Below, piece by piece: positions 8,653 to 21,897 of a DNA stretch of 21,897 nt (position 1 is the stretch's first letter; each line of letters begins with the position of its first letter). Below the pieces are notes generated by a model. It worked only from the letters and a program-made list of their open reading frames with translations. It did not search any database and had not been told where the DNA came from. Both the position numbers and the translations under genes were made by a program. The DNA lies in IMG/VR virus record IMGVR_UViG_3300027573_000128, positions 1-21,897 of that record; one strand, written 5' to 3'. The stretch is from a virus.

Positions 8653-8655
8653 GTG

Positions 8656-10620
8656 ATGGTAGCCAACATTCGTGGTTATACTCCTAACTACGGTTTCAAG
8701 CTCATCAACTTTGACACGCCACGTTGGCATACTCTTGAGTATTCCAACTGGAACATGGTCGATGGTATCTTGTTGGCAGGTGGCGTGCCATCTATGCGTG
8801 GCGCGTGGCAGAACAATACACTGTACTTAGTTGGTGAACGTGTATTTGATGAAGATACGAGTGCTATCTATAGATGTCTAGTAGAACACACGAGTGCTCT
8901 CAACGGTCCATTCATTGATGATAGAACAGCCAATCCTACTTACTGGTCATTACAACTAGCAGGCACTCCTGTATTCCGCGGCGAGTGGTTGTCAGGCGCT
9001 GTGTATGTGCTAGGTGATATAGTATCAGTTGATGATTATACATTCTATATAGCAGTCACACCATCGCACACGTCGAGTGCAACATTTCCGCCTGATGCTC
9101 TCAACTGGCAACAGGTCTTCGACGCTGCTCAAGTAGTAGCCGATGCTGAAGCTGCCGCTGCATCTGCATTCGGTCATGCTAACGCTGCTGCTGCTAGCGC
9201 GGCTGCTGCGTTGACGAGTGAGAACAATGCTGAGACTGCTGAGACTGATGCAGAGAGTTGGGCTGAGGATGCTCGTGCTGCACAAGGCGCATTCAGGTTT
9301 GCATTCAATGACAGCATTGCAGTAGCTGATCCTGCAACTGGCCGCATTGGCTTCAACAACGCGCTGCCTACATCAGCCACAGAAATCTTCATCAGTGCGC
9401 AGAGCGGAGAAGTTGGCAATCCTGATGTGTCTAGTTGGATTGTGACGTGGGATGACAGCACTAATCCGTTAACACGTGGTACAGTGCAACTACGCAAAGT
9501 AGGTGCACCTGAAGAATTTATGATCTTTGAATTAGTAGGTAGTATCGTAGACAACGGCTCATGGCTTAGACTTCCTGTCAGCTATGTTTCGCACTCTGGC
9601 AGCTTAGCAAACGCTGAGCCTATTAGCATCGGCTTCGTACGTGCTGGCAACGCTGGTCCTACTGGCACCGGCGGTGGTGATATGCTTGGTAGCAACAACT
9701 TGAGTGATGTTGCTAGTATACCAACGTCGCGTAATAACTTAGGACTAGGTACAGCGCAGATACCTACATTCTCACAAGTGCTACTAGGCAATGCACCTAG
9801 TGCACCAATGCATGCGACTACTAAGCAATACGTAGATGCTTCGCCATCACTTTATATCAGCGACACAGCACCAGTAGGCGTGCAAGACGGTTCGCTGTGG
9901 TGGGATAGCAACAGAGGTACGTTGTTAGTACGCTACAATGACGGCGACAGTGTGCAGTGGGTGGATGCTGTAGCTGTACCGGGGTTTGATACTGCTGGCT
10001 TTGTTCAGAAAGCTGGCGACACTATGACAGGTGCATTGGTGTTGCCTGGTGATCCGACCTCTGCACTGCATGCTGTACCTAAGCAATACGTCGATACAAA
10101 TCACATACGTCATCAGCGCGTTTCACTTGCAGGTTCAGCGCCATTCGTCATCAATGTACCAGTGACGGCGCAAGCAGTACGTATGACTAGTTTCGTCTCT
10201 ATAGCAACACCTACAGGACAGTTTCCATTTGTGGAATTGGGTTTTGGTGGTGTGTATCCGCCTCTTGGTAGCTACGCTCTAAACGGGTTTCATCATATTG
10301 GTGATGGCGTAGCCGTTGTAGGATATTTGAACTATCTGAACATACCGGGAATGTTACCGACACCGGCCAATGAAACCGTCGGTGTTTACTGCCAGTTTGA
10401 TGCCGCAATAAACGTACGACGCTTAAACACAGGTGCTCTGTTTCAGGGACTGTTTAATGGTGTTGCAATGACTATTGCTGGCTATACAGCAGTTTCAAAG
10501 TATTTCAACTTCCTTCAAGCAGCAACGGTTACTAACTTACAAGTTGATACAATACGCATCAATTCCAACATAGCAACACCATTTGGCGCAGACAGCTTCA
10601 TTAATCTGGAGTGGTTGTAA
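8656..10620 (+). CDS. Tail fibre / receptor-binding protein 1
   Basis: A 654-residue modular fibre. The N-terminus (YTPNYGFKLINFDTPRWHTLEYSNW) looks like a virion-attachment segment. Residues about 47-101 and 106-155 are two carbohydrate-binding-like modules (W-x-x-x-x-x-Y-x-x-G-(E/D)-x-V ... YW or NW). Residues about 155-215 form an Ala-rich helical stalk (AAAASAFGHANAAAASAAAA). A beta domain, an NLSDVAS...NLGLG motif and collar-type repeats follow (APMHATTKQYVDA; GDTMTGALVL...LHAVPKQYVD). The last 160 residues are a unique domain, probably the receptor-contacting tip, with TTT-rich codon use unlike the coat gene. GTG 8653 is possible, but GGTGG at 8644-8648 is better spaced for ATG 8656. 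Confidence 0.8.
   Translation: MVANIRGYTPNYGFKLINFDTPRWHTLEYSNWNMVDGILLAGGVPSMRGAWQNNTLYLVGERVFDEDTSAIYRCLVEHTSALNGPFIDDRTANPTYWSLQLAGTPVFRGEWLSGAVYVLGDIVSVDDYTFYIAVTPSHTSSATFPPDALNWQQVFDAAQVVADAEAAAASAFGHANAAAASAAAALTSENNAETAETDAESWAEDARAAQGAFRFAFNDSIAVADPATGRIGFNNALPTSATEIFISAQSGEVGNPDVSSWIVTWDDSTNPLTRGTVQLRKVGAPEEFMIFELVGSIVDNGSWLRLPVSYVSHSGSLANAEPISIGFVRAGNAGPTGTGGGDMLGSNNLSDVASIPTSRNNLGLGTAQIPTFSQVLLGNAPSAPMHATTKQYVDASPSLYISDTAPVGVQDGSLWWDSNRGTLLVRYNDGDSVQWVDAVAVPGFDTAGFVQKAGDTMTGALVLPGDPTSALHAVPKQYVDTNHIRHQRVSLAGSAPFVINVPVTAQAVRMTSFVSIATPTGQFPFVELGFGGVYPPLGSYALNGFHHIGDGVAVVGYLNYLNIPGMLPTPANETVGVYCQFDAAINVRRLNTGALFQGLFNGVAMTIAGYTAVSKYFNFLQAATVTNLQVDTIRINSNIATPFGADSFINLEWL
10000..10101 (+). 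repeat. Collar repeat copy A (fibre 1)
   Basis: Encodes F-V-Q-K-A-G-D-T-M-T-G-A-L-V-L then L-H-A-V-P-K-Q-Y-V-D. It is related to 10740-10848 in the next gene ([12 protein letters not shown] ... L-Q-A-V-P-K-Q) and more loosely to 9769-9842. The copies are diverged at the base level, so this is old module duplication, not recent recombination. Confidence 0.65.
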
Positions 10621-11852: not shown

Positions 11853-12211
11853 TGGCTGACTATAGGCTCACAGACACTGATATTGTGATCCGCACTAGCG
11901 ATGGTGCGTTCATACCGAATGATCCTGCTAACCGTGATCGTGCTGAATACACGGCGTGGCTAGCTGCTGGTGGTGTGCCTGATCCTTATGTACCACTGCC
12001 AGAGCCGCCGCCGTATGTTGATCCTAACAAGCGCATTGACGATGGTATCACAGCAGCTATCGGTGCGGCTGAAGCTGTACGTGATGCAGTGCATGCGATA
12101 CCTAGCAACTTCAACGCTACTAACTTCGCTGCGTTCTTGACACAAGCGAAGATACTTAGTGATGCGTTTGTAGCGATGTTGGAAGCGCAACAAGTACAAC
12201 CGCCGCCATGA
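11852..12211 (+). CDS. Small fibre-associated protein (tail fibre assembly-like)
   Basis: A 119-residue protein. Its first half has [21 protein letters not shown] and [19 protein letters not shown], a pattern seen in small phage proteins encoded beside fibre genes (XkdW or fibre-assembly style: D-P-x-N-x-D-x-x-x-Y-x-x-W-L-A-x-G). A Pro-rich linker ([12 protein letters not shown]) leads to an Ala-rich C-terminal helix. It may be a fibre chaperone or a small tip component. ATG 11852 overlaps the previous TGA by one base (TGATG) and GAGG at 11843-11846 is 5 nt upstream. The in-frame GTG at 11849 is the less likely start. It is translationally coupled to the fibre gene upstream. Confidence 0.65.
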
Positions 12212-12432
12212 TGGAAGTCATCGTCGCAGCAGCGGCGCAATATATAGTACTACAGACACTAGACGGACGCACAATGTACGTCAATCCGCGGCACATCGTC
12301 AGTACTAGTCAAGCAAAGGGTAAGTTGGTAGTAGATGCTGTGCAATGTGTCATCTACACTACCGATGGTAGGATCATCACTGTGGCTGAGAACTGCAACA
12401 GTGTCAAGGCGCGTATAGAACAACTCAAATAG
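12208..12432 (+). CDS. Small FlbD-like protein of unknown function
   Basis: A 74-residue soluble protein. The layout (I-V-L-x-T-L-D-G-R-x-x-Y-V-N-P-x-x-I ... V-I-Y-T-T-D-G-R ... T-V-A-E ... V-K-A-R-I) resembles the small FlbD family of flagellar operons and similar short phage proteins: a compact beta fold with a conserved N-P and a closing helix. The resemblance is by eye and does not imply a flagellar role. ATG 12208 shares ATGA with the stop of the previous gene; a second ATG at 12211 is possible. No separate ribosome site is visible, so translation is probably coupled. Confidence 0.55.
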
Positions 12433-12446
12433 GACAGGAGAGCACG

Positions 12447-12650
12447 ATGATTGGAACGCTTATATCTATCATCCTAATGCTGATCGTGCTCGGTGTTATT
12501 ATATGGGCCGTTCAACAACTGCTGCCGCTTGTACCACTACCTGAGCCGATTGGCAGGATCATCAATGTGCTAGTTACTGTCATCGTCGTACTTGTCGTAG
12601 TGTGGATCATCGCTGGCCTACTCGGAGTAGTGACACCTATGAGGCTATGA
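12447..12650 (+). CDS. Two-helix membrane protein, holin candidate
   Basis: A 67-residue, extremely hydrophobic protein. Helix 1 spans residues about 3-24 (LISIILMLIVLGVIIWAVQQ) and helix 2 about 39-60 (INVLVTVIVVLVVVWIIAGL). A short polar loop with PLPEPIGR lies between them. Size and two helices are compatible with a class II holin. Equally, it resembles small phage and bacterial inner-membrane proteins of unknown function with the same L-I-V-x-x-W-x(8-12)-I-x-x-V-L-N pattern. AGGAG at 12436-12440 is 6 nt before the ATG, a good independent ribosome site. The gene for a small lipoprotein overlaps its stop, which favours a lysis role. I see no free endolysin gene in the window. Confidence 0.6.
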   Translation: MIGTLISIILMLIVLGVIIWAVQQLLPLVPLPEPIGRIINVLVTVIVVLVVVWIIAGLLGVVTPMRL

Positions 12651-12841
12651 TGCGTATCGCTCTAGTACTTGCGTGCTTGCTACTGAGTGGTTGTCAGATA
12701 ACAGGCGGTAGGTGGGTAGTTGATGATGTAAGTCGTAAGTGCCGTGGTGGTGTGATCAACACAGAGAAGCGTATCACTGACACATATATCACAGGTCGCG
12801 TGAGGAATACTACAATCAGAACGGATGCGTGTTTGGACTAG
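12650..12841 (+). CDS. Small lipoprotein
   Basis: A 63-residue protein starting with a type II signal peptide (MRIALVLACLLLSGC). The lipobox L-S-G-C places the acylated Cys at residue 15, so the mature part of about 48 residues would be anchored in a membrane, probably the outer one. It is basic and has two further cysteines (KCRGG and DACLD). Overlapping ATG codons at 12647 and 12650 share bases with the previous TGA; GAGG at 12641-12644 is best spaced for 12650. It may be an outer-membrane spanin-like protein or a superinfection-exclusion lipoprotein. It lacks the Pro-rich body of Rz1, and no inner-membrane partner with a coiled coil is visible next to it. Confidence 0.65.
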   Translation: MRIALVLACLLLSGCQITGGRWVVDDVSRKCRGGVINTEKRITDTYITGRVRNTTIRTDACLD

Positions 12842-12844
12842 CAG

Positions 12845-13390
12845 ATGAAAGTCGAAGAACTACACACACCGTTGCACGCTGTTGATGTTGCTGAGTTAGC
12901 TCAACATCATCACGACGAATTTGGCGGTAGTCGTGAGTTCTCAAGAGATGCTGTTAGCCGTGCATGTTTCAACTGCATACTAGACAGACAACGTGAACAG
13001 GTCAACTGCTGGGTAGTATACGATGATGCAGATATACCTGTTGGCTACTTCGCTGGCACTATTCATCCTAGCTTCTACAGCGATCGTTTATACGCTGTAC
13101 AAGAGATGTGGTACGTGCTGCCTAGAGTTAGAGGCACTAGAGCAGCAATCGAACTACTGGTACAATTTGAGCGTTGGGCTAACAATCACGGTGTTGAGCG
13201 CATCTATACACAAGTCGAACATGATGTTGATGCTGAGTTAGTAGAGCGCATCTTTAGGATGATGAATAAGTTAGGTTATAAGAAGCAAGGCTACATCGCT
13301 GTGAAAGTGACGAACAACAAACCAAACACACCGAAGTATGAGGACATTCACAATGATCGCACCACACATCGCACAGTGGGCGCTGAATAA
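12845..13390 (+). CDS. GNAT-family N-acetyltransferase
   Basis: A 181-residue enzyme expected to move an acetyl group from acetyl-CoA to an amine. The fold is visible as a GNAT layout: an N-terminal helix pair, the strand VNCWVVYDDADIPVGYFAG, then the strand QEMWYVLPRVRGTRAAIELLV. The last carries the V-x-P-x-x-R-G acetyl-CoA pyrophosphate-binding element (motif A, R-x-R-G-T-R). The motif B region is RMMNKLGYKKQGYIAVKV. The substrate cannot be told. It lies between the lysis-like genes and the ejection proteins, so it is an enzyme inside a structural block and should be expressed late. The ribosome site is weak (GGA at 12835-12837). Its last 38 bases overlap the next gene. Confidence 0.75.
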   Translation: MKVEELHTPLHAVDVAELAQHHHDEFGGSREFSRDAVSRACFNCILDRQREQVNCWVVYDDADIPVGYFAGTIHPSFYSDRLYAVQEMWYVLPRVRGTRAAIELLVQFERWANNHGVERIYTQVEHDVDAELVERIFRMMNKLGYKKQGYIAVKVTNNKPNTPKYEDIHNDRTTHRTVGAE

Positions 13391-14474
13391 GCGTAAGTCT
13401 GCTGGTGAGAATGAGGCGCGTGTGGCTGCGCATGTAGCTACGCACGTCGAGAGTGTACAGAAGAAAGCAAAGCGCAAGCCTCCTACTAACGAACGCGTGT
13501 TAGAGACTAAGGGTGGTGGTGGTTATCAACCGCCTCCGCAACCTAGCCCACGTGAGCTAGCTGAAGCACGCGATTGGGAAGCACAGCAAGAGTACGAACG
13601 TGAGCAACGCCGCGCTGATGCACTCAAGGAGCAGCAACGCATTGACAAGGAAGCAAGCGATGCTGCATGGAGTTCTAGCAAGGGTGCAGCATACACAGGT
13701 GCGTTGACAGGTGGTACTAATCGGTTGAAGTCGTTGGGCATTGAAGCTGGTGATCCATACGGTGTATATAGTGACTTCACCAATCGCCTCAACACTGCCA
13801 ACGCAAGCCTGCAACCGGGCGCTGACTACTCAAGTGCGTTCGCTCCTACCATCCTTGATGAGATACTAGGCAGCGCGCGTAGTGGTCAACGCAACAAGTA
13901 CCGCACTGCGTTCGAGAGCCAGATCAATCCCTACTACGCAGAGGACAGATTTGGTAGTACTGCAGATGACGCAATCTTGAACGCCATTCTAGAGGATCAA
14001 TACGGCCAAGCTGCTGCCGATCTACAAGCTGCACGTGATCGCGGTCAGGCTAGCAACATCGTCTACGACAGAGCATTGAAAGACCTTGGCACTGCGCGCT
14101 CTACTGCCAACAGTGAGTTGCAGAACATCGGTGGTGGTGTGCTGTCTGACATCGTTGGTGACATCGGTACACGCAGACAGAGTGCACTCGACAGCGCGGC
14201 TGCATGGGACTTCGGTACTACGTACGATCCCAATCAGGAAGCTGGTCGTATTCGTAGCTACGCAGACGAACGTGGTGCAGGGCTTGAAGGTGCTATCCGT
14301 GGTGCTGTTGGTGGTCGTGAGTTCTTTGATGTCAACTCACTCATTGGCAAGGCTGCGTCACGTGCTGGCAATCAGACTACGCCAACTACTACAGGCAGTG
14401 CGCTGTTCGACACGTTCAAGAATGAAGCTACTAAGACCAATGAGAACGTGAAGGCTACCGAAGGCATCTTCTAA
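13353..14474 (+). CDS. Internal virion protein (ejection protein) 1
   Basis: A 373-residue protein without a recognised domain. The N-terminus is short and helical (IAPHIAQWALNKRKSAG). It is followed by a basic segment, a Gly/Pro linker (GGGGYQPPPQPSP), and a strongly charged coiled coil (residues about 70-105, AEARDWEAQQEYEREQRRAD). Helical repeats then alternate with Gly-rich stretches (LKDLGTARSTANSELQNIGG). Composition and its place just before two other Ala/Gln/Gly-rich proteins match the first internal protein of podoviruses, which is injected into the cell. GAGG at 13340-13343 is 9 nt before ATG 13353; the earlier in-frame ATG 13338 has no ribosome site. The gene overlaps the acetyltransferase by 38 nt. 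Confidence 0.6.
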   Translation: MIAPHIAQWALNKRKSAGENEARVAAHVATHVESVQKKAKRKPPTNERVLETKGGGGYQPPPQPSPRELAEARDWEAQQEYEREQRRADALKEQQRIDKEASDAAWSSSKGAAYTGALTGGTNRLKSLGIEAGDPYGVYSDFTNRLNTANASLQPGADYSSAFAPTILDEILGSARSGQRNKYRTAFESQINPYYAEDRFGSTADDAILNAILEDQYGQAAADLQAARDRGQASNIVYDRALKDLGTARSTANSELQNIGGGVLSDIVGDIGTRRQSALDSAAAWDFGTTYDPNQEAGRIRSYADERGAGLEGAIRGAVGGREFFDVNSLIGKAASRAGNQTTPTTTGSALFDTFKNEATKTNENVKATEGIF

Positions 14475-14485
14475 GGAATAGAGCG

Positions 14486-15529
14486 ATGATGGACTTCGGC
14501 ATAGGTGGTATAGCTAGCGGTGTGTTCGGCTTTCTCGGTGCGATGGAGAACGCCGACGCACAGCGCGAAGCTACGCAAGCCAATTGGGCTATCAACATTG
14601 CGAACATGCAAGCGCGTGAGCGTGAGCGCAATGAAGCTATCGCTATGTCCAACAAGCTGCGTGGTGAGCAGAAGCTAGGCACGACTGACATACGTGGTAC
14701 GCGGACTAAGTTCGTACCCGGTCAAGGTTGGGTTGTAACAGGTGCGCCTGATCTACTTGAGATGATGAAGCTACAAGACGCAGAGCAGCGCAAGGTGCTG
14801 ACTGAAGACTTGCCTATGCGTCGCTCTGTGATGAAGCGCAACTACACACGCGGGATAGAGGAAGAAGCACTAGCTGACACGTTCAGACGGCAGTTGATGA
14901 ACAAAGCGCCAGTAGATGATGACGCTTATGCAGCAGACTTGTATCAAGCTATAGCAGGTGGCTTGCGTGAAGCTAGTGGTGATGCTGGTCGTCGAGTGTT
15001 CACACAAGCGATGCGCACTGGTCAGAACAGCAACTTCGGTGACGTAGCCACAGGTCTACAGCGTGCAGACAATGCTGCGTATGCCAATGCAGCACTGCAA
15101 GCGAAGCTGATGTCACGTGGTGAAGGTGAGAAGCGTGCGGGTGAGAGACAGAACAGACTTGCTAATCTGTACAACTTGTTCGCTACACGTGCGCAGCAAC
15201 TGCCAGAGACGAACTACAAGCCTCAGACCATTGACGCAATGGGCACAGTGAGTGATGCAACTAAGCAAGCTATGCAAGCTGGCGAGTTGTCAACTAAGAT
15301 GTCAGCTATGAAGGGCGGTGAGCTTGACTACATCTCGCCTAACTTCGGCTACGGCAATGCCATCTCCGCACTCGGTGGAGCGTTCAGCGGTATAGGTGGT
15401 GGTGGTAGTCGTGGTAGACAGCAACAGCAACAGCAGCAAGGTGGCGTACAAGGCTTCGGTGCTACAGGTGGTGGCGGTGGTTACGACGATATGTACATCA
15501 GCAGTCAGCACGATCTTGGCGGTTGGTAG
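14486..15529 (+). CDS. Internal virion protein (ejection protein) 2
   Basis: A 347-residue protein. It starts with a hydrophobic Gly/Ala segment (MMDFGIGGIASGVFGFLGAM), which could insert into a membrane, then a helical QREATQANWAINIANMQARERERNEA coiled coil. Its body is helical with an F-V-P-G-Q-G-W-V-V-T-G-A-P element. The C-terminal 65 residues are low complexity: GGG repeats, seven Gln in a row and YDDMYISSQHDLGGW at the end. This is the organisation of the middle T7-type ejection protein, though I see no family motif. AAGGA at 14473-14477 lies 8 nt before ATG 14486; ATG 14489 follows in tandem. It sits 11 nt after the preceding gene and 10 nt before the next. Confidence 0.62.
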   Translation: MMDFGIGGIASGVFGFLGAMENADAQREATQANWAINIANMQARERERNEAIAMSNKLRGEQKLGTTDIRGTRTKFVPGQGWVVTGAPDLLEMMKLQDAEQRKVLTEDLPMRRSVMKRNYTRGIEEEALADTFRRQLMNKAPVDDDAYAADLYQAIAGGLREASGDAGRRVFTQAMRTGQNSNFGDVATGLQRADNAAYANAALQAKLMSRGEGEKRAGERQNRLANLYNLFATRAQQLPETNYKPQTIDAMGTVSDATKQAMQAGELSTKMSAMKGGELDYISPNFGYGNAISALGGAFSGIGGGGSRGRQQQQQQQGGVQGFGATGGGGGYDDMYISSQHDLGGW

Positions 15530-15539
15530 TAGGTGATCA

Positions 15540-18500
15540 ATGGCACGTGTCATCCCGTCAGGTATACAAGACGAAACAGGCCGCAACGCTAGGCAGAATG
15601 CTGCAAATGCTGCAGCACTGCTTCGTCTGTATAAGTCACTACAAGCACGGCGCGAAGAACAAGAGCGCAATGAAGCAATGCGCTTGCAGATGCTTGGATT
15701 GCAGCAGCAACATGCAATCGGCATGCAAGAGCGCAGTCAGCAACATGCGTATGATCTTGAAGATTACAGGTATGGTGGTGGTCGTAGTGGTGGTGCTGGT
15801 GGTCCTAATCTACTAGGTCCGGGTGCACAAGGTCTACCTGCTCCTGCTACTCCTGCACCTACTACAGCAGCGCCTGCAGCTAGGCCACCTGTGTTCAATC
15901 CTGGCATGATACCTGGCAGTGTTGCACCACTTACACCCGGTGATCAGTTCAAAGGCGCTACGCAGCAACCAACTATAGGCCCCAATCCTGATAAGTTCTC
16001 TGCACGCACAGGTGATGACACAGAGGCATTCTCTGCGCAGGCACGTGCACCTACTGCACCCGCGCCGACTAAGAGCGGTATGAATGTCAAGTCACCGTTG
16101 CCTAATGAGACATCTAGACGCACACGCCAACGTCCGCAGCGTGATGCGTATCTGCCGATTGATCCGCAGTGGCTTAGTTACATGTCACAGAAGGAGAAGG
16201 AGTACGGTCTGCCACAAGGTATGCTGATGACACTCTACGGCATGGAGAATGGCGGTGGGCGTAGTGTAGGCAAGAACCCTAAGAGCAGTGCGTACGGCTT
16301 GTTTCAGTTCACTGCAGACTTGCGCAAGGAACACGGCATCAGTGATCAAGATGCACTCAATCCCGCTATCATGATTGATCGTGCTGCTGCCAATCTACAG
16401 CGCAATCATGAAGTGCTCAAGACCAAGTTCGGTGTATCACTACCGACTACACCCGAAGCTATACCTATATGGTCTATCTTGCATCAGTTCGGTGCAGGCA
16501 ACGGACCACGCATTGTAAAGGCGTTGGCTGATGGTCATGACACGCCGATGGCGCAAGTGATGATACCGAGTAAGAACAACTACCAGACACTTGTCAACAA
16601 CGGCATCGACCCGATGACGAGTGTGAAGAACTTCGTAGGTCAGCACACACAGAAAGCGCGTAACTGGTTTCACTCTAGCATACAGCAGTTCCAAAATCCG
16701 AATAGAGAGCAACAGCCACAGCAACAAGAGCAACGTCCCCCTGCAGACATTCAAGGTGGTGGGCGTGGTGCCAATCCGCGACTGATTAGAGCAATCAGCG
16801 GTGGTGCATCACTTGCGCTGCCTGATGGTTATTCACTGCAACAGACATCAGGACATAGGCCGGGTGATCGTGGCTATCATGGTAGGCGTGAAGCTGCTGA
16901 CTTTCAGATCGTCACACCTGACGGCAGGGCGATACCGAATAGGGGTGAAGATACAACAGGATTGTACACACGCTTAGCACGTGGTGTTAAGACGTGGGTT
17001 GCTGAGAATGACCCACAGCTTCGCATCAACTACGGCGGTGCTCATGGCACACAGAAGGGCGGTGGTGGTGTACCTGACTTGATGCACTACGACACCGGAC
17101 CTGATCGCGGCAACATGCGTCCTGATGTGCGTATGTCTAGGTTGCCACTGCTTAGTGACGAAGAACGCAATGCACCTGTACAGCAAGCATCAGCACAAGC
17201 ACCTACGCCTACACCACAAGTACAACCATTGCCACAAGTACAAGCACAAGCGCCTGATGTTAGTGTACAAGCTGCAACACTGCCGTCGCGTGGTGGCAAG
17301 GTGATTGGCAACACTGCGGCATTTGAGAAGCAGTACGGTGTACAACCACAGCCGTCTATTGCGTCGCTTGACATCTTCAGCCCGACACTTGCAGCTAATC
17401 AGCCAACGCAGCAACAGCCACCTACGTCTATCACGCCGAAGTCGAGCACACTGAGTGCACGGAGTGATCTAGAGTACGGCGCACAGCCTGCTACCGCTGA
17501 TGTGCCTGCACCTATCGAACCACAGAGAAGCACGTTGAGTGCTCGCAGTGATCTTGACTATGGTGGACAAGCACCTGAGCAAGTACCACAGCAGAAGCAA
17601 CCGCCTCCGAGTGAAGACTATGATCTGCGTGATGACATGCAGACAGAGTTCACTGTGTCTAGTCGCGAAGGCTCACCACAGGTAGATGTAGCGGTTGATC
17701 AGGCTCTAGCCGATCTACGTGGTGACATCAACACACGCAACTTCCCAACGCTACCGACGCCAGGTGTTGTAGCTAAGCAAGACCTACCACCTGAATTGAC
17801 ACCACCTGCTGCAGCTATACAGTGGCCTCCTGCTTCACCCGCCGCACCTAGCGCAGTAGCACGTGCACCTATACCACAAGAGTTTGCAACTGTTGACAGG
17901 GGACAGAGGCCGGGTGCACCTATACCTGATGTGAGTGCTAGTACTGCTCAACCTACAGCACCTACACGTGTACCCGGTCAGAGCATTGTGAATGCTATCT
18001 ACTCACGTCTACCTAATCTGTCTACTGCAGCACAACAAGGTGACAAAGGCACACCGCCGCAACTACCCAACATGCCGCCACCATCCGCACTCATGCCCAG
18101 CTTGCCGCCTATGCCACAAGGCATGACACTTGAAGGTGTAGGTGAGTGGTTGAAGCAGAACTTCGGTCCCGGCGGTGCACCGCCTGCACAGCAAGAGTTC
18201 AATACTAAGCTGCAGAATGCTGTGCAACAGAAGTTCGGTGATATACGTGGTGCTGTAGGTGGCTTCGATCCGATGGCGTTCATTGAACGTCTACGCTACG
18301 GGCCTAAGAGTGTGAAGACTACTACTATCGGTCAACCACAACAGCCTGCAACTAAACAACCCGCACGCACGATGCCGGGTGGTACACCGTATATGCCAGA
18401 TCAACCGCCGCTTACACTTGTGCCTAAGAAGGGTGGGCCTACTAATACTACGTTGAGTGGTGGTGGCAGCAGTGCAAGTACTGTGCCTCTACCCGATAGT

Positions 18501-18653
18501 GGTGGTGTTGGTATAAAGCAAATGCCTGATGGTAGTACTTTGGTCAAGATGCCTGATGGCTCGATGATGCGTCGTCGCGTTGTCAACGGCCAAGTAATTC
18601 TTGATGTACCTAATGATACTCCTACGGGTGAAGAAGTAACTGCTGGGCAATAG
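15540..18653 (+). CDS. Virion-associated lysin: lytic transglycosylase plus M15-like peptidase
   Basis: A 1,037-residue ejection protein with two murein-active modules. Residues about 20-75 are a Gln/Arg-rich coiled coil, then a Pro/Gly/Ala-rich linker. Residues about 203-345 form a lytic transglycosylase domain: M-E-N-G-G-G with catalytic Glu236, then S-S-A-Y-G-L-F-Q-F. Residues about 421-520 look like an M15-type metallopeptidase: SGHRPGDRG, then H447-x-x-x-x-A-x-D454, and H516 in L-M-H-Y-D as the third zinc ligand. The remaining half is disordered, Pro/Gln-rich, with a duplicated STLSARSDL-(E/D)-YG motif near residues 635 and 663. The role is to open peptidoglycan during DNA entry. The ribosome site TAGGTGATC sits immediately before ATG 15540. 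The transglycosylase call is firm; the peptidase call is by motif only. Confidence 0.82.
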   Translation: MARVIPSGIQDETGRNARQNAANAAALLRLYKSLQARREEQERNEAMRLQMLGLQQQHAIGMQERSQQHAYDLEDYRYGGGRSGGAGGPNLLGPGAQGLPAPATPAPTTAAPAARPPVFNPGMIPGSVAPLTPGDQFKGATQQPTIGPNPDKFSARTGDDTEAFSAQARAPTAPAPTKSGMNVKSPLPNETSRRTRQRPQRDAYLPIDPQWLSYMSQKEKEYGLPQGMLMTLYGMENGGGRSVGKNPKSSAYGLFQFTADLRKEHGISDQDALNPAIMIDRAAANLQRNHEVLKTKFGVSLPTTPEAIPIWSILHQFGAGNGPRIVKALADGHDTPMAQVMIPSKNNYQTLVNNGIDPMTSVKNFVGQHTQKARNWFHSSIQQFQNPNREQQPQQQEQRPPADIQGGGRGANPRLIRAISGGASLALPDGYSLQQTSGHRPGDRGYHGRREAADFQIVTPDGRAIPNRGEDTTGLYTRLARGVKTWVAENDPQLRINYGGAHGTQKGGGGVPDLMHYDTGPDRGNMRPDVRMSRLPLLSDEERNAPVQQASAQAPTPTPQVQPLPQVQAQAPDVSVQAATLPSRGGKVIGNTAAFEKQYGVQPQPSIASLDIFSPTLAANQPTQQQPPTSITPKSSTLSARSDLEYGAQPATADVPAPIEPQRSTLSARSDLDYGGQAPEQVPQQKQPPPSEDYDLRDDMQTEFTVSSREGSPQVDVAVDQALADLRGDINTRNFPTLPTPGVVAKQDLPPELTPPAAAIQWPPASPAAPSAVARAPIPQEFATVDRGQRPGAPIPDVSASTAQPTAPTRVPGQSIVNAIYSRLPNLSTAAQQGDKGTPPQLPNMPPPSALMPSLPPMPQGMTLEGVGEWLKQNFGPGGAPPAQQEFNTKLQNAVQQKFGDIRGAVGGFDPMAFIERLRYGPKSVKTTTIGQPQQPATKQPARTMPGGTPYMPDQPPLTLVPKKGGPTNTTLSGGGSSASTVPLPDSGGVGIKQMPDGSTLVKMPDGSMMRRRVVNGQVILDVPNDTPTGEEVTAGQ
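17444..17566 (+). repeat. Duplicated STLSARSDL-(E/D)-YG motif in the virion lysin
   Basis: Two 12-residue copies 28 residues apart, at codons starting 17444 and 17528, in the disordered C-terminal half of the lysin-type ejection protein. Synonymous positions differ between copies (for example ACACTGAGTGCACGG against ACGTTGAGTGCTCGC). The peptide is therefore preserved more strictly than the DNA, which suggests a short binding motif. Confidence 0.6.
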
Positions 18654-18654
18654 T

Positions 18655-21600
18655 ATGTCAGATGGTTATACATCGTATACCAAGGATGAGTTCATAGCCA
18701 AGTTCGGCTACGATCCTGACGCTGTTGGTGAGCCTGTTGCTGCTAGCGGCGGTTCACCTATCACCAATCACTTGAAGTCTGCAGCAGTCGGCGTGATGAC
18801 TGTGCCGACTGACATTCTCAACTTCCCATCTACTGTGTACAAAGGCGCTGGTGCGCTTTACGACGCATACGCCAATGACACCAAGTTCGTTGATGAGTTC
18901 CAGAAGCGCATACAAGTTGAAGGTGCTAAGGACAACGTACAGAAGCACTTGCAGGATGTCGTCACATCATGGCGACAGCGTGATCCTAGCTTGACACCTG
19001 AACAACTTGAAGCTGGCATAGCTGAGTACCAGAAGTCGAAGCAGTTTGAAGACTTCACCACTGAGCAACTGAGTGGCACGCAGTATGTAGCAAGCAAGTG
19101 GCGTGATACGAGTAGGCGTTTGCTAGGTGACGAGCGTACAGAGGATCAACGCAGTTGGACTGAGAGTGCTGGTGAAGTACTAGGTGGTGCACTAGTCGGC
19201 GGTCCTGCTGGTTGGGTTGGTAGGCTTAGTACTGTGCCTAGACTAGCAGGTGTTGTAGCTAATCCTGTAGCACGTGGTGCTATTCGTACTGCCGAAGCAC
19301 TCACACCGCTGACGATGCCTTATACTGGTACGAACGTAGCAATCAACGCGGCTGCTGGCATTGGTATAGATCAAGCGGTGCGCTATGCACAAGGTAAGTC
19401 TACAGCATTCACACCTACTGATGAAGACAGTGCAGGCATTGCATCGTTGGCTGGCACGTCTGCTGTTGTTGCAGGCGCTGCAGCGTTCGTAGCTGCTGTA
19501 CGTGGTAGGACTAGACAAGCACTACAGCAAAGTCAGACTGAGTTAGCACTGCAAGCCAATCCGCAGTTGAACTACAGAGTTGAACTTGATCCACAGACAG
19601 GCCAATCGTTCATACGTGGTGGTGCGCCACAACAACTAGGCCCATCGTCTGAGCTAGAGGAAACATCGAACAGAAGTCTGTTCGGTCGTGTACAAGGTTG
19701 GCGTCGCAGTGCACGTGATAGGCTCATTGATCAGGCTGCACACCCCAATGCGATGATCCGTGACATACACGGCGGTGAAGTAGCGAGAGAGGCTGAGAAC
19801 CTATACACACGTAACACAGGCGCTGTGCTCACAGACCGCATCGCATCAGACACTATCACCATCGACGGTCCAGTGCGTGATGCATGGGCAGCTATGTCGC
19901 CTGAGAGACAACGTGCTGTTGCTAATGCACACTGGATGACATCATACGGGTCGGACATACTGACCACGATGGATGATCTACGCACTAGGATCGCTAATCT
20001 ACAGACACAGATCACCAATCCACGCACGCAGCAGTCGTCTATCAACACACTGCAAAATCAGGTTGCAGAGTTGCAGACTAGCTTGCGTCGTCTAACCAAC
20101 GATGATCCAGATGCACGCATGCGTGTGCCTACGATCAGTCAGAACACTGTGTTCTCAACACGCAACACGTTTCTAGCTGACACCGATCCACAGGTGATGG
20201 CTTACAAGAACGCAGTTAGAAATCGCAACCGCATACTGCTCGACATGCAAGTAGCTAGCGGTAGGCTGTCACGTGCGACTGCGGATGAGTGGCACCGACG
20301 CAATCCATACTACGTGCAAGCGGTCAATGATCCATACAACAACCTGACAGGCTGGGCACGCACTCTTGCCAAGTGGCGTGGCTCTGTTCGTGCTGCACAG
20401 ACTAGAGCAAGCGAAGGCTCTGCAGCAGGCACACTGCGTGAAGGACCGCTGCGCAGTCTAGACAAGAACCCTGCAGCAGTACAAGGTGTAGGTGCACCTG
20501 AGACACGCATCACGCATCCAATGGAGCCGATGAGTGCATCGCAAGAGTACACAATTCGTACACTGCGAGAGGTCGCACATACACTGCCACGCAATGAGTA
20601 CATCAGGCTGTTGACACAAGACCCTGCAGGCAATCCATCTGCACTTGTCATTGACGGTCGTATACGTGGTGTGCAGAGTGGTGTTAACAGATACTGGTTC
20701 ACTCCTGAGCAGTTGAACTCACCTACATTCAGACACTTGAAGGACAGAACAGACGTAGCTATAGAGTGGCAGAACGGTCAAGCACGTGTGTGGGAGTTTG
20801 GTGATCCTGAAGTAACACGTGCGCTGCGCATGGAGCCTGTGCAGTTGTCGGGCTTGATGAAGACAGCGACAGCAATCACCAACAACTTCAAGTTCTTCAC
20901 CACTGGCAAAGGCAATCCTGCGTTCGCACCTGTCAACGGTTACTACAACACTGCCATTGCGATGTTGACACACAGAGCAGATAGAGTGTTCGGCCCTGTG
21001 TCATATGGACTACACCGTGTGTTGCCAGAGCGTGCAGCTAGGATCATCGGTGGTACTGTGCCAGATGTCACGTCGATCGCAGCGATGCCTTACTACGCAG
21101 TCAAGAACTTGATCCAACTACAGACACACTTCTTGACAAGGCCGCTAGCACGACAGCTTGCACAGAACGTAGTACCATTTCAGGCGTTGCAGTCTGTAGT
21201 CGGTCAGCGCATGTTCAACAGCATGGTCAACGTGGCTAGCCGTGTTGCACTGTGGGCTGATCAATCACCCGCAGTAGTACTACGCCGTGGTGGTGCTGGT
21301 CATGGTGTGCAGTCGATTGACAACATACCCAAGATACGTGACAGCTTCAGTTCAATGAAGGAGAGAGTGCCTGCACCACTGCGGTATGCGTGGCAGTTCT
21401 ACACTGATGTGCTCGACAGCTTCCATCTCTCTGACAAGGCGCAGTACTTCACTCAGAACCACGCGCTGTTGTCACGTAGACATGGTGGCAATATACCACA
21501 GCGCGATCTTGAACGGCTGATTGACGAGACACGCAACATCTCTGGCGATATGTCACTTGTACCGGCTAGTAAGTTGATGCAAGATGTTGAACGTGTAGTG

Positions 21601-21897
21601 CCGTATATGACGCAGACCAAGCTGGGTGCGTATCATCTAGCACGCAACATGTTCGGCAGGGATACAGCGCAATTCGTTATACCGCGTATGATGGTTGCGA
21701 TGTACGCAGTCGGTCAGTCGTACTACTTCATGACGCACTGGAACGATGAGAGTAGGAAGAAGCTGTGGCAAGAGACACCTGAGTATGATCGCTATCGCTT
21801 CGTCTACATACCTACTCCACAACTGCTGCTAGCATGGGGCAAGGGTGAGAACCCTGCATACAGTGATGATCTAGTATACAAGGTGCGCATACCACCC
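18655..21897 (+). CDS. Giant internal virion (ejection) protein, 3'-truncated
   Basis: Open frame from ATG 18655, one base after the previous TAG, to the window edge: 1,081 codons without a stop. It is long, as T7 gp16-type ejection proteins are. Residues about 170-205 (SAGEVLGGALVGGPAGWVG) and 260-283 (AGIASLAGTSAVVAGAAAFVAAV) are hydrophobic and could insert into a membrane. Residues about 442-480 are a coiled coil (LRTRIANLQTQITNPRTQQS). The end, residues about 912-1070, resembles the LPD38-type domain of large polyvalent phage proteins: RNISGDMSLVPASKLMQDVER, VVPYMTQTKLGAYHLARN and neighbouring Trp/Tyr-rich helices. AGGA-like bases upstream are weak, so translation is likely coupled. A dyad lies at codons 4-9. 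Confidence 0.8.
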   Translation, partial: MSDGYTSYTKDEFIAKFGYDPDAVGEPVAASGGSPITNHLKSAAVGVMTVPTDILNFPSTVYKGAGALYDAYANDTKFVDEFQKRIQVEGAKDNVQKHLQDVVTSWRQRDPSLTPEQLEAGIAEYQKSKQFEDFTTEQLSGTQYVASKWRDTSRRLLGDERTEDQRSWTESAGEVLGGALVGGPAGWVGRLSTVPRLAGVVANPVARGAIRTAEALTPLTMPYTGTNVAINAAAGIGIDQAVRYAQGKSTAFTPTDEDSAGIASLAGTSAVVAGAAAFVAAVRGRTRQALQQSQTELALQANPQLNYRVELDPQTGQSFIRGGAPQQLGPSSELEETSNRSLFGRVQGWRRSARDRLIDQAAHPNAMIRDIHGGEVAREAENLYTRNTGAVLTDRIASDTITIDGPVRDAWAAMSPERQRAVANAHWMTSYGSDILTTMDDLRTRIANLQTQITNPRTQQSSINTLQNQVAELQTSLRRLTNDDPDARMRVPTISQNTVFSTRNTFLADTDPQVMAYKNAVRNRNRILLDMQVASGRLSRATADEWHRRNPYYVQAVNDPYNNLTGWARTLAKWRGSVRAAQTRASEGSAAGTLREGPLRSLDKNPAAVQGVGAPETRITHPMEPMSASQEYTIRTLREVAHTLPRNEYIRLLTQDPAGNPSALVIDGRIRGVQSGVNRYWFTPEQLNSPTFRHLKDRTDVAIEWQNGQARVWEFGDPEVTRALRMEPVQLSGLMKTATAITNNFKFFTTGKGNPAFAPVNGYYNTAIAMLTHRADRVFGPVSYGLHRVLPERAARIIGGTVPDVTSIAAMPYYAVKNLIQLQTHFLTRPLARQLAQNVVPFQALQSVVGQRMFNSMVNVASRVALWADQSPAVVLRRGGAGHGVQSIDNIPKIRDSFSSMKERVPAPLRYAWQFYTDVLDSFHLSDKAQYFTQNHALLSRRHGGNIPQRDLERLIDETRNISGDMSLVPASKLMQDVERVVPYMTQTKLGAYHLARNMFGRDTAQFVIPRMMVAMYAVGQSYYFMTHWNDESRKKLWQETPEYDRYRFVYIPTPQLLLAWGKGENPAYSDDLVYKVRIPP
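18666..18680 (+). promoter_or_regulatory. Third copy of the TTATAC-N3-GTATA dyad, inside a gene start
   Basis: TTATAC-ATC-GTATAC with five perfect pairs, 11 nt downstream of the start codon of the giant ejection gene, and followed by CCAAGGA. Here it also encodes Tyr-Thr-Ser-Tyr-Thr, so coding chance cannot be excluded. It is listed because the other two copies are non-coding and lie at gene junctions. Confidence 0.25.

Follow-up and report, generated by a model that had tools for sequence, protein, structure and literature searches.

In the sections available on phage T7, a lytic transglycosylase (LT) is the only wall-cutting domain of gp16. Two cutters are combined in phi29, where gp13, a podovirus virion protein, has a lysozyme-like and an endopeptidase domain (PMC9863714, available sections); its peptidase is of the M23 type (PMC9662197). 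In phage TM4, motif 3 (MT3) degrades peptidoglycan and aids DNA injection into stationary cells, and we regard TM4 as having no LT partner because motif 3 is the only one listed for this phage in the Introduction of that source (PMC1796659, available sections). The motif-3 domain of VldE is M15-like according to the available part of another study (PMC11667670). As for general statements, the available sections of one review assign a single catalytic domain to the virion-associated lysins of Gram-negative phages (PMC9863714), those of a second place virion endopeptidases, with few exceptions, in phages that infect Gram-positive bacteria (PMC6116005), and the word "peptidase" is absent from the main text, in the portion available, of a review published in 2022 on the ejection proteins of podoviruses (PMC8954989). 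In the literature that we searched, with most subscription papers outside it, no description was found of an LT paired with an M15 peptidase in a podovirus ejection protein.

Here we analysed a stretch of viral DNA of 21,897 bases (the window), which is a complete IMG/VR record and a fragment of a podovirus-like genome; it is probably from a podovirus because of its gene content and capsid-protein relatives. An open reading frame (ORF) of 1037 aa (15540..18653, plus strand, as are all window features below) is predicted to encode an ejection protein, that is an internal virion protein, in which an LT is joined to a peptidase of the M15 type. It shares with T7 gp16 the LT fold (Z 8.7 for the predicted LT part against the T7 core-protein chain 9jyy_I, presumably gp16) and a predicted role in entry, but it adds the M15-type peptidase and is separate from the 1435-aa protein that follows it. 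Like phi29 gp13, it would be a podovirus virion protein that cuts both glycan and peptide, whereas gp13 has an M23 peptidase instead of M15, is located at the tail tip and not internally, and belongs to a Bacillus phage. TM4 motif 3 and VldE/Spr1875 likewise have an M15-like zinc peptidase, in TM4 within an injection-aiding virion protein, although these are a siphovirus tape measure or a bacterial protein. Finally, the M15_C endolysins (EndoT5, EndoRB49, Ply500, LysB4) share the fold, the zinc ligands and the catalytic Asp with the predicted domain of the window, but they are free lysis enzymes, while the window domain lies inside a large ORF and lacks their conserved Trp. An earlier, sequence-only reading of the window had called the pairing unusual; this applies as far as podovirus ejection proteins are concerned, for which we found it undescribed, whereas phi29 gp13 and other phage ORFs also pair glycan and peptide cutters.

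Organisation of the 1037-aa open reading frame

The LT domain (aa 200–385, 16137..16694) was placed by Pfam, PHROG and predicted fold, and its catalytic Glu236 is encoded at 16245-16247. It is followed by a Q/P-rich linker (aa 386–410, 16695..16769), which has 25 aa in the window and is longer in other members (alignment A4); in a model of both domains the linker region shows a pLDDT below 50 at model residues 192–205. The M15-type zinc peptidase domain (aa 411–535, 16770..17144) was delimited by the A2 alignment, the structural model, its fold matches and a profile alignment with Ply500. Its first zinc motif, H-x6-D (16878..16901), runs from His447 (16878-16880) to Asp454 (16899-16901), each present in 27/27 aligned sequences. 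The second, D-x-x-H (17076..17087), was assigned from conservation and the Ply500 alignment and comprises the presumed catalytic Asp513 (17076-17078) and the zinc ligand His516 (17085-17087). The remainder of the protein is a long Pro/Gln/Ala-rich tail by composition (aa 536–1037, 17145..18650; 15.3% Pro, 10.0% Gln), in which no Pfam match was obtained and no domain recognised. The sequence-only reading had given E236, H447, D454 and H516 the residue numbers that we find, and its span for the two domains (16149-17130, aa 204–530) is correct to within a few residues.

A counterpart of identical length and gene order is present in a related contig (L002:9392-12505). When the two are compared, dN/dS is 0.095 for the LT domain, 0.088 for the M15-type domain and 0.196 for the tail. 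Both domains are slow-changing and under purifying selection between the window and this relative.

The lytic transglycosylase domain

The Pfam SLT model matches the window protein below its cut-off (E=0.0019, 18.2 bits versus 21.3 bits), and a relative likewise stays under the same 21.3-bit threshold with 20.0 bits (L057). The PHROG transglycosylase family phrog_4067 matches aa 214–396 (5e-7) and phrog_2533, a family of unknown function, matches aa 213–286 (3.8e-9). The model of the LT and M15 domains together is of middling quality (pLDDT 71.5, pTM 0.49); its residues 10–183 align with phiKZ gp144 (Z 13.4, rmsd 3.0, 158 aligned), and the next matches, at Z 8–10, are the Phi6 lysin, MltF, Slt, MltE, the T7 core-protein chain and goose lysozyme. 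With an LT profile the only PDB matches were two SltB chains, weak (E 1.8–2) and aligned across Glu236, which is invariant in alignment A4 (7/7). The proposal that the ORF carries an LT with Glu236 as its catalytic residue is thus borne out by the phrog_4067 match, the predicted LT/goose-lysozyme fold with its catalytic Glu and the invariance of this residue, with Pfam SLT below threshold.

The M15-type peptidase domain

On the window sequence the peptidase domain is unnamed by Pfam and NCBIfam, and PHROG yields for it a single tape-measure match at chance level (E 0.29). By tblastn we obtained tape-measure proteins of Rhizobium phages with 33–36% identity and weak E-values (0.03–0.3). Those of RHph_I4 and L338C have a domain about 33% identical to that of the window, zinc-binding and catalytic residues included, but they belong to long-tailed phages and the A5 LT profile has no match in their stretches (L004, L005). 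An IMG/VR search with an alignment including two of these tape-measure proteins gave 35 loci from 69 candidate stretches. Genome contigs scanned with the single domain sequence gave no relative among 175 stretches, while alignment A1 gave one among 66, in Rhizobium lusitanum; a plasmid search returned one weak match (E=4, over 55 residues). Alignment A2 contains 27 sequences, that of the window plus 26 chosen from the 36 loci found, and omits near-copies or truncated loci (L014, L016, L017, L020, L025, L030, L031, L038, L045 and L046). Within it S437, H447, A452, D454, G499, G500 and D513 are kept in 27/27 and R440 in 24/27; D513, the presumed catalytic acid, had not been named in the sequence-only reading. 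H516 is present in 25/27, and the two others (L040, L041) read "...DLMH" past an insertion when translated further.

As a check on the peptidase assignment, the sequence-only reading had proposed an HMM search against M15 families. This came out mixed: no Pfam M15 family matches the window protein, Peptidase_M15_4 included, while nine of ten relatives scanned do match Peptidase_M15_4 at E up to 1, none reaching its cut-off (best 24.4 bits versus 25). Searched against the PDB up to E=10, the A2 profile finds four sequences, all of them M15-type (VldE twice, 0.0018; Ply500, 0.3; VanX, 1.3). The other check, structure prediction, was clearer as regards the fold. The AlphaFold model of the domain has a pLDDT of 87.3 and a pTM of 0.84, and the top fold matches are M15 enzymes: Foldseek places ChiX, LysECD7, Ply500, VldE and VanX as the five best, with only ChiX at E <= 0.001 and unrelated folds from rank 6 on. 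Comparison with PDB folds gave ChiX (5opz; Z 10.1, rmsd 3.2, 103 aligned), LysECD7 (8q2g; Z 9.6, rmsd 3.1, 101 aligned), which we take to be an M15 enzyme, the RB49 peptidase (23ri; Z 8.2, rmsd 3.1, 99 aligned), EndoT5 (2mxz; Z 7.6, rmsd 3.7, 107 aligned) and Ply500 (2vo9; Z 7.4, rmsd 3.0, 101 aligned). Among viral models Foldseek found six matches at E <= 0.001, five of them nameless. An hhalign comparison with Ply500 (phage A500 record) pairs all of H447, D454, D513 and H516 (E 8.1e-5, probability 61%). In EndoT5 the zinc ligands are H66, D73 and H133 and the catalytic Asp is D130 (PMC10487532, available sections), and D130/H133 have the spacing of D513/H516. As to kinship with MT3, matches to mycobacteriophage tape measures were weak (52% over 25 aa, E 3–7, among the matches listed), and the A2 profile match to VldE (0.0018) falls on an MT3 domain.

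Chance occurrence of the motif was considered and rejected, because conservation of the four catalytic residues extends over 27 sequences, in agreement with the predicted fold. The zinc-ligand pattern, an acid placed three positions ahead of the second His and the predicted fold are those of the M15 clan, which also holds Hedgehog domains. The peptidase suspected earlier from H447, D454 and H516 is therefore supported by conservation in the 27 sequences, the predicted M15 fold and the Ply500 pairing, and the domain is, by these predictions, an M15-fold zinc peptidase.

One feature of M15_C enzymes differs. From the Ply500 alignment and RB49 numbering, the position of their typical Trp (W114/W109) is taken by His502 in the window, and across A2 by Phe in 24/27 and His in 3/27. 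Since this defining Trp is not kept, we file the predicted domain as M15-type and not as M15_C. The replacement could mean that we are dealing with a pseudo-enzyme, whose fold carries zinc or binds murein but is devoid of useful catalysis, and Hedgehog domains, which have the same fold, do match the model at Z 5.2–6.0. We consider this very improbable: the catalytic positions are kept in 27 diverse sequences, the domain changes slowly between the window and L002, W-to-F mutants of EndoT5 and EndoRB49 retain 30–40% activity (PMC10487532, whose available sections report no His variant at this position), and the tape measures of Omega and Che8 have Phe instead of the conserved motif-3 Trp, maybe at another position (PMC1796659, available sections).

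An active peptidase may still cut a bond other than L-Ala-D-Glu, either the cross-link or, as a carboxypeptidase, the terminal D-Ala. The nearest Pfam families (M15_4 and VanY, all below cut-off) are named D-alanyl-D-alanine carboxypeptidase, and VldE, which tops the PDB matches by sequence, carries the title of an L,D-endopeptidase. Against this, several L-Ala-D-Glu endopeptidases, one of them in first place, are among the best fold matches and share the D-x-x-H spacing, an argument of limited weight since fold does not fix specificity. We therefore hold another bond to be possible but somewhat unlikely, and keep L-Ala-D-Glu as the favoured target.

Pairing of the two domains among relatives

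In order to follow the pairing, related LT domains were searched for with LT alignment A5, which gave 14 loci. An A2-type M15 domain is present in the same ORF as the LT at 11 of these 14, including one locus whose M15 domain is cut by the contig end (L062) and one whose LT is cut (L070); at two further loci the contig ends before the peptidase slot (L058, L068). With the window, LT and A2-type M15 thus occur in one ORF in 12 records, several of which are near-copies, and LT with an M15_3-like domain in one. In this last case (L065) the LT is kept and the M15_3-like domain occupies the peptidase slot (L065:5619-6131), with 21.4 bits against a cut-off of 23.2 (E 0.00029) and again 22 bits in a six-frame search. 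By eye, its first His lies 10 residues before the Asp, versus 7 in A2-type domains. A scan of viral contigs with this peptidase found its own contig only, and a single-sequence PDB search found no M15 enzyme. The arrangement suggests that the peptidase domain has been replaced in L065, and, as a different M15-like domain stands in the same slot beside the LT, the pairing itself seems to be maintained.

In a midpoint-rooted tree of the domain, the seven podovirus-type sequences of A2 form one group (98/99), which adjoins L021–L024 (joint group 97/96, with L024 on a long branch). Pfam names no tape-measure domain in the latter, which we nevertheless read as tape-measure-like. Because the podovirus-type group adjoins these sequences, the tree suggests that the M15-type domain moves between phage types. 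Among 20 other M15-domain ORFs, Phage_lysozyme2 is predicted in five (L021, L023 and three of a set of 11), SLT in two and M23 in one, the counts within the set of 11 being per domain, and one ORF may hold several; judged by these domain matches, other phage ORFs also pair an M15-type domain with a glycan cutter. The tape measure of corynephage CL31 has an SLT domain above the Pfam cut-off (23.0 versus 21.3 bits) and a short M15/MT3-like motif (a 23-residue match, 73.9%, E 7e-3). As neither the A2 nor the A5 profile has a match in the CL31 stretch (L006) or in those of seven capsid relatives (L072–L078), this tape measure is called M15-like from the 23-residue match and the motif seen by eye.

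Gene neighbourhood and predicted role in ejection

Upstream of the 1037-aa ORF lie two presumed ejection or virion proteins, of 347 aa (14486..15529) and 378 aa (13338..14474), assigned by conserved gene order, and downstream a presumed large ejection protein (18655..21897), which is cut by the window end and has 1435 aa in L002. A GNAT acetyltransferase (12845..13390, Pfam 2.3e-7) precedes them and also stands first in this module in relatives of the phage; perhaps it modifies virion proteins. The 347-aa protein belongs to no Pfam or PHROG family, tblastn with it and with the 1435-aa protein gave no match in a collection of 50,697 phage records, and an 831-aa protein likewise had no tblastn match in phages. 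Two other window proteins have domain matches just above cut-off, a tail-fibre-like protein (8653-10620) with CBM_5_12 (26.8 versus 26.2 bits) and a 74-aa protein (12208-12432) with FlbD (24.9 versus 24.7 bits).

The annotated relatives of the capsid protein, with 24–29% identity, are from BUCT555 (host Stenotrophomonas), Mx8/Mx9 (Myxococcus), RHph_I3_18 (Rhizobium), ppBjS10J-1 (Bradyrhizobium) and two uncultured records. In BUCT555, ppBjS10J-1, RHph_I3_18 and Mx9 (L072, L073, L075, L077) an acetyl- or acyltransferase is followed by structural or hypothetical proteins, as in the window. At the place matching the 1037-aa ORF, BUCT555 encodes a protein annotated as an LT and Mx8 has two annotated virion structural proteins, with p53, a potential holin, three genes earlier. 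This acetyltransferase-headed order, together with the LT protein of BUCT555 and the virion structural proteins of Mx8, suggests that the 1037-aa ORF encodes an ejection protein; the assignment to the ejection module comes from gene order and not from homology of its neighbours, since the 347-aa and 1435-aa proteins are without a match. The lack of A2 and A5 matches in the seven capsid relatives likewise speaks against this reading. The earlier proposal of a single injected protein with two murein cutters stands in that both predicted domains lie in one ORF at the position of an ejection protein, while we infer the ejection itself.

Search for an endolysin

A second role for the protein was also considered, in which it, or a surplus of it, degrades the wall for late lysis after release by a small membrane protein, the reason in that view being that these phages have no separate endolysin. 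We therefore looked at a complete relative (G006, comprising L049–L051), which is circular or terminally redundant, with 44,808 bases and an exact end overlap of 127 bp, and which is also useful as a reference genome for the lineage. For 37 of the 46 ORFs listed for it, no endolysin was named among the matches listed, whether with Pfam (25 of 35 families) or with PHROG (25 of 52), and PHROG named none either when 20 proteins were scanned singly (17 from this genome, two of them outside the 37). The A2 profile finds in it only the counterpart of the LT and M15 ORF. Six-frame searches of six lineage records with PF08291, PF00959, PF01510 and PF05838 recovered only the domain of L065 already described, while PF08291 detected the free endolysin of BUCT555 in a seventh record, used as positive control. 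Yet PF01464 found the LT in one of the six lineage records though all six carry it, and because a known LT was missed in five of six, the absence of an endolysin is weak evidence.

Among the matches listed in the same Pfam scan of 37 ORFs are one UDG and one DNA_pol_A. The start of the DNA polymerase of L002 (16829-19357, minus strand), matching L050:447-3059, resembles what we take to be a uracil-DNA glycosylase motif, and this polymerase is possibly a UDG–polymerase fusion.

The comparison with BUCT555 bears on the same question. Its gene order, with the acetyltransferase and an LT protein, is similar, but the M15-type enzyme of this phage is an M15_3 endolysin encoded on its own next to an annotated holin, and its 585-aa LT protein has no A2 match; no free endolysin was recognised in the window family. 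Like the lack of a recognised endolysin in the complete relative, this favours a role in lysis, as do two adjoining upstream proteins, one lipoprotein-like and the other small and hydrophobic (window 12447-12841; L050:13688-14079). On the other hand, a divergent endolysin is as easily missed as the LT was by the SLT model (five of six), and a 1037-aa protein that is presumably capsid-bound would be an odd lysis enzyme. On balance we judge such a second role to be quite unlikely. At 12447-12841 itself, the ORF of a 67-aa hydrophobic protein overlaps the small lipoprotein-like one that comes next; they are possible holin/spanin candidates, and the sole lysis-type PHROG match there is at chance level. 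In phage T7, gene 16 reportedly compensated for a lost lysin. A scenario in which the free endolysin was lost and one two-enzyme ejection protein came to serve entry and exit, with M15 domains of different types taking the peptidase slot in the course of evolution, is in our view a long shot, and entry is the best-supported role.

Discussion

The two-domain protein is real and well supported by sequence and predicted structure. It is likely that it acts as a podovirus ejection protein whose LT and M15 peptidase breach the wall for DNA entry, the peptidase most likely being directed at L-Ala-D-Glu. During infection the 1037-aa protein would leave the capsid together with the other ejection proteins, and its two activities would open the peptidoglycan where DNA is injected. 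The LT domain, through Glu236, would cut the MurNAc-GlcNAc glycan strand. In the M15-type domain His447, Asp454 and His516 would bind zinc and Asp513 would act as catalytic acid/base, the stem peptide being cut most probably between L-Ala and D-Glu. Cutting strand and peptide at one spot could free whole murein patches, and the double cut may be of greatest help on highly cross-linked walls.

The wall-piercing principle is already known, as are M15-like domains in virions (TM4 motif 3) and the cutting of glycan and peptide by a single podovirus protein (phi29 gp13). What is new, judged by the literature searched, is the combination of LT and M15 in an ejection-type protein whose peptidase slot is exchangeable, probably in a podovirus of a Gram-negative host; such a host is suggested by those named for the closest relatives of the capsid protein, at 24–29% identity. 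If the host is indeed Gram-negative, the family would be an exception to both review generalisations, that of a single catalytic domain and that of endopeptidases almost confined to phages of Gram-positive bacteria. With a peptidase half that varies while the LT half stays constant, it may also serve as a natural experiment for asking why the two cuts are combined in phages.
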